NCBI GenBank assembly: GCA_021782525.1
Contig: JAJXUY010000033.1
Location: 1 to 10,492, forward strand
Reading direction: 5' to 3'
DNA from: Acidobacteriota bacterium
GTDB lineage: Bacteria; Acidobacteriota; Thermoanaerobaculia; Thermoanaerobaculales; Thermoanaerobaculaceae
DNA length: 10,492 nt
Part shown: positions 6,744-8,735 of the stretch, in pieces
Layout of the letters: each line of letters begins with the position of its first letter
Numbering within the stretch: position 1 is the stretch's first letter
Translations under genes and position numbers: made by a program
The notes under the pieces: model-generated
Told to the model about the DNA's origin: nothing
Databases searched by the model: none
Seen by the model: only the letters and a program-made list of their open reading frames with translations

Positions 6744-8735
6744 ATGCGAAAAGCTTTGGGAGTGGTTGTCTTCTCCATCACGGGGCTGAGCACACTGATC
6801 CTTTCCGATATGGGCAGTCATCTGATGTCGCAGGCCTCTGCCAAACCCGCGGCGGAGGCAACCGAGGGAGCGGCCAACAGCCAGCCGGCCGAGGCCTCGC
6901 GCACGATCATCGCAGCGGTGCCCGGCACCCCGGACGGTGTCCTGCTGATGCAGGCGCATGCGCTCTTCGGCAGACTCCCCGCGACCATGCCCGGTGGCGA
7001 GCAGGACACCCCCGCCATGATCGCGCTGGGAAAGAGCCTCTATTTCGAAACCGCCATTTCGATCAACAAGACCCAATCCTGCAACTCGTGCCATCCGATT
7101 GACGACAACGGCCCAGGCGCGGACAACCTCAAGACAGGAAGAGGCGCGATAGGAAAGTCCGGCGACCGCAACGATCCGCCCACCATGAACGCCGGCTACC
7201 AGATCGCGCAGTTCTGGGACGGACGCGCGCCCACTCTGGAAAAGCAGGCCCAGGGCCCCCCGCTCAACCCGATCGAAATGGGCATGCCCGATGCCGCCGC
7301 GTTGGTCGAACGGCTGAAAGGCATCGATCATTATCCCGCTGACTTCAAAGCGGTCTTCCCTGGCGAGGATGACCCCGTGACCTTCGACAACTTTGCCAGA
7401 GCGGTCGCTGCCTTTGAACGAACCCTGGTAACCCGGGGCCGCTTCGACCGCTTCATGGACGGCGACGGACAAGCCCTCGCCGAGCAGGAACTGGCGGGGA
7501 TGCGCACCTTCATCGACGTCGGCTGCGTGCACTGCCACAGCGGCCCCAACCTGGGCGGAATGACCTTCCAGAAACTGGGCGTCTTCCATGCTTACAGCAA
7601 CACCAAAGACCCTGGGCGCTTCAAGGTCACCAACCTGGAAAGCGATCGATACGTCTTCAAGGTTCCGATGCTGCGCAACGCCACCCTCTCCGCCCCCTAT
7701 TTCCACGACGGCGAGGTTGGCAACCTGCCCGAGGCGGTGGACCGCATGGGCTACCTGCAGTTGGATAGGAAACTGAACGACGTCGAGATCAGGAATATCC
7801 TCGGCTTCTTGACCACGCTGGCGGATGCTGAGCGCACCACCGCGCCGATGGCGGCGGAGACGATCTCCGCCACCTGGGTGCCGCCGCTGATGACGGATGT
7901 TCCCCAGGGAGAGCAGGGTGACCTCATCCGCTACGGCGTAGTGCTTGTGACCGACACCTATGCGCGGCTTGGCGCCGGCGCGAAAGACCAGAAGATGCGT
8001 TTCTCCGGAAATACCCTGAACTGCACCAGCTGCCACCTGAACGACGGCACCAAGCAGTTTGGCCTCCCCTGGATGGGGGTGAGTCAGGCATACCCGCAAT
8101 ACCGGGGCCGCGAAGACCAGGTGCAGGGGCTCGAGGCGCGGATCAACGGTTGTTTCGAGCGCAGCCTCAACGGCAAGCCGCTGCCCACCGACAGCAGGGA
8201 GATGAAGGCCATCGTCGCCTACATGAACTGGTTGTCGAAGGACATGCCCAAGAACGCCGCCGGCCTGGGATTGGCCAAGTTCGAGAGCCCGAACCGCAAG
8301 GCCGATGCGACGAGGGGCCAAGCGGTCTACAACCGGTTCTGCATGGCGTGCCACGGCGGCAACGGCGACGGCTATCAGTCGATGTCGGCCGGACGTTTGG
8401 GCGGCCATGTCGCGCCGGCGCTCTGGGGAGCGAACAGCTACAACTTCGGGGCGGGAATGAACCGCTTGCTGACCACCGCCGCGTTCATTCACGGCAACAT
8501 GCCGCTGGGAACGCCGTGGAACCACCCGACCATCAGCACTGAAGACGCCTACGATGTCGCCGCCTGTCTCAGCTCCAAGGAGCGGCCGCGGGTGGCCGGC
8601 CTGGAGAAGGACTATCCGAAGCTGGAGAAGAAAGCGGTGGACTGCCCGTATCCCCCGTACGCGGACCGGTTTTCACAGGAACAGCATCAGTACGGGCCGT
8701 TCCAGGCGATCAAGGACGCGCAGAAAGGGAAATAG
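6744..8735 (+). CDS. Secreted tetraheme cytochrome: cytochrome c peroxidase fused to a TsdA-like thiosulfate dehydrogenase
   Basis: This encodes 663 residues. A Sec signal peptide ends near ASA33, so the protein is periplasmic. Residues 90-360 are a diheme bacterial cytochrome c peroxidase: heme P at C113-NS-C116-H117, FWDGRAPTLE (W158), NPIEMG (E178), FERTLV, heme E at C261-VH-C264-H265, VPMLRN, APYFHDG (H321), and M335, at the position of the conserved heme E methionine. Residues 390-663 resemble diheme TsdA: heme at C427-TS-C430-H431, INGCFERSLNG with C470 as the likely Cys heme ligand typical of thiosulfate dehydrogenase, heme at C533-MA-C536-H537, and NMPLG (M586) as a likely Met ligand. 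TsdA makes tetrathionate from thiosulfate; CCP reduces hydrogen peroxide. One open frame joins them with a linker at about 360-395. AAGGGAG precedes the ATG. Codon use is less GC-rich than the neighbours. A diheme electron acceptor role for the CCP half is equally possible. Confidence 0.88.
   Translation: MRKALGVVVFSITGLSTLILSDMGSHLMSQASAKPAAEATEGAANSQPAEASRTIIAAVPGTPDGVLLMQAHALFGRLPATMPGGEQDTPAMIALGKSLYFETAISINKTQSCNSCHPIDDNGPGADNLKTGRGAIGKSGDRNDPPTMNAGYQIAQFWDGRAPTLEKQAQGPPLNPIEMGMPDAAALVERLKGIDHYPADFKAVFPGEDDPVTFDNFARAVAAFERTLVTRGRFDRFMDGDGQALAEQELAGMRTFIDVGCVHCHSGPNLGGMTFQKLGVFHAYSNTKDPGRFKVTNLESDRYVFKVPMLRNATLSAPYFHDGEVGNLPEAVDRMGYLQLDRKLNDVEIRNILGFLTTLADAERTTAPMAAETISATWVPPLMTDVPQGEQGDLIRYGVVLVTDTYARLGAGAKDQKMRFSGNTLNCTSCHLNDGTKQFGLPWMGVSQAYPQYRGREDQVQGLEARINGCFERSLNGKPLPTDSREMKAIVAYMNWLSKDMPKNAAGLGLAKFESPNRKADATRGQAVYNRFCMACHGGNGDGYQSMSAGRLGGHVAPALWGANSYNFGAGMNRLLTTAAFIHGNMPLGTPWNHPTISTEDAYDVAACLSSKERPRVAGLEKDYPKLEKKAVDCPYPPYADRFSQEQHQYGPFQAIKDAQKGK

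Follow-up and report, generated by a model that had tools for sequence, protein, structure and literature searches.

Does a bacterial protein that joins a dihaem cytochrome c peroxidase (CCP) to the thiosulfate dehydrogenase TsdA use the first enzyme to spend electrons released by the second? The question is raised by a gene in a 10,492-nucleotide stretch of an Acidobacteriota bacterium (assembly GCA_021782525.1, contig JAJXUY010000033.1, positions 1 to 10,492; hereafter the window). An earlier note, made from the sequence alone, had described this gene as a single frame with four CXXCH haem sites fusing the two enzymes, and had suggested that thiosulfate oxidation could be wired to peroxide reduction. 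The frame (6744..8735, forward strand) is intact from ATG to TAG and encodes 663 amino acids (aa) with CXXCH at residues 113, 261, 427 and 533. The peroxidase motifs named for the first half (FWDGRA at 157, NPIEMG at 175, FERTLV at 224, APYFHDG at 317) and the TsdA features named for the second (C470 within INGCFERSLNG, NMPLG at 585–589) were each found where the note had placed them. A 611-aa open reading frame on the opposite strand (6690..8525) was taken as a mechanical shadow of the gene.

Domain searches identified the N-terminal half as a CCP and the C-terminal half as a TsdA. With phmmer against PDB, residues 67–376 matched the dihaem CCP structure 3hq9 (E 5.2e-68) and residues 384–616 the TsdA structure 4wqc (E 2.2e-39), the C-terminal half also matching the TsdBA structure 5lo9 (E 4.8e-37). 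Pfam matches were CCP_MauG (2.1e-48), SoxA-TsdA_cyt-c (3.4e-11) and Cytochrom_C (5.7e-17). The first half thus has the CCP_MauG domain and two CXXCH sites of a dihaem CCP (PF03150), and the second has two CXXCH sites, a SoxA-TsdA cytochrome c domain and a predicted TsdA fold. Scores for related families fell below the NCBIfam cut-offs: 50.3 against 110 bits for the SoxA equivalog, 123.3 against 443.85 for MauG and 156.1 against 362.85 for MbnH. By homology, then, both halves belong to known families. The note's functional interpretation is partly supported.

A survey of homologues showed that the pairing recurs. Of 1802 protein matches at E ≤ 1e-3, conservation counts use 110 of the best 120 listed, chosen as 630–700 aa long, with the window protein included and ten shorter matches dropped. 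At least 110 full-length proteins therefore share both halves; those other than the window protein are 53–92% identical, and all 110 have exactly four CXXCH sites. Residue roles in the CCP half were assigned by alignment with MacA and by residue spacing in NgBCCP (PMC10094543, in excerpt). The set expected of a working peroxidase is present, with Q168, E178 and M335 in 110/110 and W158 in 109/110; P172, N143 and P318 are kept in all. The protein does not fall in the classical His-locked class: residues 119–148 of the window protein include no His, and among the fusions His occurs at column 133 once and at column 136 never. Without this distal His, the oxidised enzyme would be expected to have a peroxidatic (P) haem that is already competent, and an outside donor would not be needed to activate it; the site would be constitutively ready. 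A claim that all stand-alone CCPs lack the distal His is weakened, as none of 119 has His at column 133, but in 40 there is a His three columns on, perhaps the same residue displaced by the way gaps were placed. Because the CCP haem loops were badly modelled in an initial structure prediction (predicted local distance difference test score 73), a second was built on a broader alignment; the AlphaFold model of the fusion resembles active more than resting CCP structures.

Residues of the TsdA half were assigned by alignment with known TsdA proteins, their roles taken from PMC6879331 and PMC5146829 (both in excerpt). C470 corresponds to Cys96 of TsdA from Allochromatium vinosum (AvTsdA), and R456 and R466 to Arg109 and Arg119 (arginine numbers by our conversion), so that the Cys ligand and two substrate arginines are present by residue, with ligation predicted. 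H537 and M586, in 110/110, would likewise supply a His/Met haem 2.

We hold, with about even confidence, that the fusion is a periplasmic four-haem thiosulfate:hydrogen-peroxide oxidoreductase that would form tetrathionate. In the TsdA half, the His/Cys haem 1 would join two thiosulfates into tetrathionate; the two electrons would move from the His/Met haem 2 to the His/Met electron-entry (E) haem of the CCP half and by way of W158 on to the P haem, at which one H2O2 would be reduced to water with the help of Gln168 and Glu178. Because both half-reactions involve two electrons, thiosulfate oxidation and peroxide reduction would be coupled 1:1. The peroxide potential would provide the pull for this flow. 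Potentials reported in excerpted sources (thiosulfate/tetrathionate, +198 mV; haem 2 of Campylobacter jejuni TsdA (CjTsdA), +172 mV; E haem of YhjA, +210 mV) would permit electrons to reach the E haem (other papers cited, also in excerpt: PMC6405878, PMC10301912, PMC10090131). Secretion, with the periplasmic location that it implies, haem loading, the electron path, its direction and the substrates are all predicted.

A contact between the halves is suggested by one residue. Among the 110 fusions, 115 columns of the CCP half (residues 60–365) are at least 95% conserved. In four CCP-only proteins that nest within the fusion family (P0239, P0241, P0243 and P0244), 112 of these are unchanged and two are changed in one protein; D333, two residues before M335 and Asp in 108/110 fusions, is the only column changed in all four (to E, N, K and T). 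Another CCP-only protein, P0248, has E at this position, and 106 stand-alone CCPs have K in 60, R in 19 and Asp in one. P0242, whose end lies in the fusion's linker and early TsdA sequence, keeps the Asp. Loss of D333 in all four nested relatives suggests that it is a docking residue and that TsdA docks at the E-haem face.

Trees were built for the two halves. Both used a quick method with Shimodaira–Hasegawa-like approximate likelihood-ratio (SH-aLRT) support only, and included the same 24 fusions (less than 78% mutually identical, from the 110) with either 36 TsdA-only or 31 CCP-only proteins. The TsdA halves formed one group (SH-aLRT 99) with three TsdA-only proteins nested; P0136, whose first residues lie within a CCP end, is apparently a truncated fusion, and the sequences of P0126 and P0129 begin within the linker or shortly beyond it. 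Of the CCP halves, 20 of the 24 formed one group (support 96) with five CCP-only proteins nested, and P0117 and P0118 joined it at 85. The CCP tree does not show a single origin, because the divergent fusions P0114 and P0120 group with stand-alone CCPs (support 85, the branch being very short). Distances in one half are correlated with those in the other (r 0.89; 0/5000 permutations). P0243 and P0244 are sisters and P0239 and P0241 join at 94, so TsdA may have been lost from these four two or three independent times, in some cases perhaps beginning as a frameshift in the linker. P0239 is identical to the fusion P0072 in residues 66–243 and 91% identical in 244–362, a pattern as after recombination.

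Several observations weigh against the thiosulfate:peroxide reading. The comparison of the model with active and resting CCPs had exceptions; the fusion was found in just 1/396 genomes from the phylum of one Acidobacteria bin (G001) and 1/399 from the order of a Rhodocyclaceae bin (G011), each time in the centre genome itself; and TsdA is bidirectional, with the C. jejuni enzyme, which has the same haem-2 Asn-Met, described in excerpted sources as a tetrathionate reductase. This last point favours the main rival, a dual-acceptor terminal reductase that would pass electrons from quinol or a periplasmic cytochrome to peroxide at the P haem or to tetrathionate at TsdA haem 1, whichever is present. 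We consider it possible, if doubtful. About half of the hosts would have dissimilatory sulfite reductase, dsrA scoring above cut-off in 11/21 fusion genomes. Near the fusion in four loci (L005 and L046–L048) lies a trio of a separate TsdA, a bd-oxidase subunit I-like (CydA-like) protein with a c-haem and a membrane cytochrome with two c-haems; in L046–L048 a DsrE-like gene comes next, then the fusion and then a gene for a solute-binding protein. The trio, seen in nine genomes with or without the fusion, looks like an undescribed quinol-linked tetrathionate reductase or thiosulfate dehydrogenase complex, in a literature that we searched little. Against the dual-acceptor proposal, the trio already has its own TsdA wherever it is present, and it stands without the fusion in 4/4 further genomes (17–18 kb opened in each), making it a separate module. 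The position of CjTsdA Lys252, moreover, is Lys in only 2/110 fusions and mostly His or Gln, and K252G pushes CjTsdA towards oxidation (in excerpted sources); yet AvTsdA too has Lys at this position, which leaves the argument for the oxidative direction with little weight.

The CCP half could instead be an electron-transfer arm that has lost peroxidase activity, serving a tetrathionate reductase or thiosulfate dehydrogenase much as TsdB does. The order of an electron-transfer dihaem module followed by TsdA is that of TsdBA (5lo9), but a mere relay would not need the peroxide-pocket residues Q168 and E178, which are invariant, and we think this improbable. Slightly less probable again is a chain that serves to deliver two independent enzymes together, each working with outside partners and with no direct electron transfer between them. 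Both parents function alone, and the nested CCP-only relatives fit such an arrangement; the D333 pattern and the co-variation of the halves argue against it. An assembly join or pseudogene, a worry of the earlier note that the lower G+C content of the gene might feed (63%, compared with 72% for the rest of the window), is ruled out for practical purposes because the fusion recurs as at least 110 full-length relatives and in independent assemblies from several phyla, with a conserved junction, an open frame and most change at third codon positions.

The fusion is rare and patchily distributed. A search of a genome collection gave 35 loci, of which L001–L023 carry the fusion, whole or cut off by a contig end; L018 and L021 share a bin, and this and their coordinates led us to count them as the two ends of a single gene. 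Record titles name Acidobacteria, Kiritimatiellae, Desulfobacterota-type taxa, Rhodocyclaceae, Petrimonas and Mariniphaga bins, and a full-length fusion was present in 6/395 genomes of the phylum of G006, G006 included. PF21342 was found in 20/21 fusion genomes, and in 17 of these 20 the fusion locus was the sole match better than 1e-9. Two other assemblies carry genes 91% and 85% identical to that of the window. Compared codon by codon, the window gene aligns gap-free with those of L001 and L002, which have the same length, and similarity across the junction matches that elsewhere in the gene. Homology with L001 is confined to the gene plus some 200 bp before it and 16 bp after it; with L002 it covers only the gene and about 30 bp downstream. 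Together with the lower G+C content and the patchy distribution, this suggests that the gene moved horizontally as a single-gene unit. A plasmid-borne gene was rejected, as only 11 of 72,556 plasmid records matched at E 1e-60 and none over 80% of the query length; a 20-base motif upstream of the gene had no exact match among 51 loci.

In the window, the neighbours tested encode a methyltransferase and an aldo/keto reductase, and no sulfur gene was seen among them. An AhpC/TSA-Redoxin family protein is encoded at 454–1065, 5.7 kb from the fusion, preceded by a short open reading frame (3–419) with a WCEPC motif. Across 26 fusion genes (the window, 22 in L001–L023, and L046–L048), sulfur genes lay near 10, in a search of part of the neighbours in which several of the other genes sit on short contigs. 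SoxB-like genes occur in L004, L007, L011 and L021, with SoxB the best NCBIfam model, all below the 550-bit cut-off and three of the four being partial genes; L003 has a contig-edge SoxB-like piece, and L008 a sulfur oxygenase reductase two genes upstream of the fusion. Between that gene and a DJ-1 gene, L008:7151-7225 encodes a 25-residue piece 92% identical to the SoxB-like start. The SoxB-like gene L004:12360-13808, 76% identical to that of L007, is interrupted by an in-frame stop; a selenocysteine reading was rejected because the stop is TAA. Matches to the L011 gene fall in more than one frame. Neighbours linked to oxidative stress include superoxide dismutase (L004, L018) and DJ-1/PfpI (L004, L005, L008); a Pfam tally of 96 of 115 near neighbours, the window's excluded, gave three superoxide dismutase, two AhpC/TSA and two rubrerythrin-type rubredoxin domains.

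Table 1 Features of the fusion gene (window positions) and of neighbouring genes at other loci (locus positions).
Feature	Residues	Position	Strand	Basis
Fusion gene, four c-type haem sites	663 aa	6744..8735	+	Open reading frame, CXXCH sites, PDB phmmer and Pfam matches
Putative N-terminal signal peptide or membrane anchor	1-33	6744..6842	+	Model helix 2-20, low confidence
Cytochrome c peroxidase half	62-364	6927..7835	+	
CNSCH, P haem site	113-117	7080..7094	+	CXXCH; homology
Position of classical CCP distal His (MacA H93)	R133	7140..7142	+	His in 1/110 fusions
Inter-haem electron-relay Trp (Trp98 of NgBCCP)	W158	7215..7217	+	109/110; role from NgBCCP
Peroxide-pocket catalytic Gln and Glu (NgBCCP Gln108, Glu118)	Q168 ... 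E178	7245..7277	+	110/110 each
CVHCH, E haem site	261-265	7524..7538	+	CXXCH; homology
Fusion-specific Asp by E-haem Met ligand; proposed TsdA docking residue	D333	7740..7742	+	Conservation pattern
E-haem distal Met ligand	M335	7746..7748	+	110/110; homology
TsdA half	374-618	7863..8597	+	
CTSCH, TsdA haem 1 (active site)	427-431	8022..8036	+	CXXCH; alignment
Substrate arginines and haem-1 Cys ligand	R456, R466, C470	8109..8153	+	109, 110, 110 of 110; alignment
CMACH, TsdA haem 2 (electron transfer)	533-537	8340..8354	+	CXXCH; alignment
Haem-2 Met ligand after Asn	N585-M586	8496..8501	+	M586 110/110, N585 108/110
DsrE-like gene beside fusion		L046:8624-9169		
Solute-binding protein gene beside fusion		L046:11237-12181		
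Trio		L046:4743-8580, L047:11228-14996, L048:11940-15699, L005:4447-8368, L055-L061		

If the halves are coupled, one protein would by itself dispose of peroxide at the expense of thiosulfate, and oxidative stress would be tied to the sulfur cycle in bacteria of several phyla. D333 also offers a natural case in which to study how docking at an electron-entry haem is rearranged once a partner has been fused. Such a coupled activity would probably be new. A bolder extension, which we consider rather unlikely, is a ‘thiosulfate peroxidase’ with which anaerobes and sulfur-cycle bacteria would detoxify or respire H2O2 from an inorganic sulfur donor without a cytochrome carrier; in lineages with the trio, thiosulfate/tetrathionate would be a diffusible periplasmic shuttle, quinol reducing tetrathionate through the trio and the fusion spending thiosulfate on peroxide. 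Where the protein listing gives a source name, it is ‘cytochrome c peroxidase’, ‘di-heme cytochrome c peroxidase’ or ‘c-type cytochrome’, names that make it easy for genome surveys to miss the sulfur half. No report of a CCP–TsdA fusion was found by searches of open-licence PMC full texts, a scope that leaves out most subscription papers and all preprints; the family is conserved and apparently unstudied.

Among known systems, the bacterial dihaem CCPs (MacA/CcpA, NgBCCP and Pseudomonas aeruginosa CCP) differ from the fusion in lacking an attached TsdA and in the distal His, absent from 109/110 fusions, and stand-alone relatives have Lys or Arg (79/106) in place of Asp333. The trihaem peroxidases YhjA and QPO are another extended form, but YhjA carries a single haem at its N terminus, with quinol as the proposed electron source, whereas the fusion has a dihaem TsdA at its C terminus. 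A SCO1-MauG fusion in the mto clusters of Methylophaga (PMC6548844, in excerpt) also places a MauG-type peroxidase domain in a sulfur gene cluster; it is a predicted maturation factor and has no TsdA. With the TsdA enzymes of A. vinosum and C. jejuni the fusion shares the haem-1 Cys, both arginines and the haem-2 Met, and its predicted TsdA half lies 1.5–1.7 Å from the AvTsdA fold; the residue before the haem-2 Met is Asn, which the C. jejuni enzyme shares, where that of A. vinosum has Lys (from excerpts). It differs from both in its place behind a CCP and in the usual residue at the Lys252 equivalent. To our knowledge TsdB is not a peroxidase. TsdBA of Marichromatium purpuratum (5lo9, source in excerpt) also carries TsdA at the C terminus of a dihaem electron-transfer module, but in the fusion the corresponding module is a CCP whose peroxide pocket is conserved.
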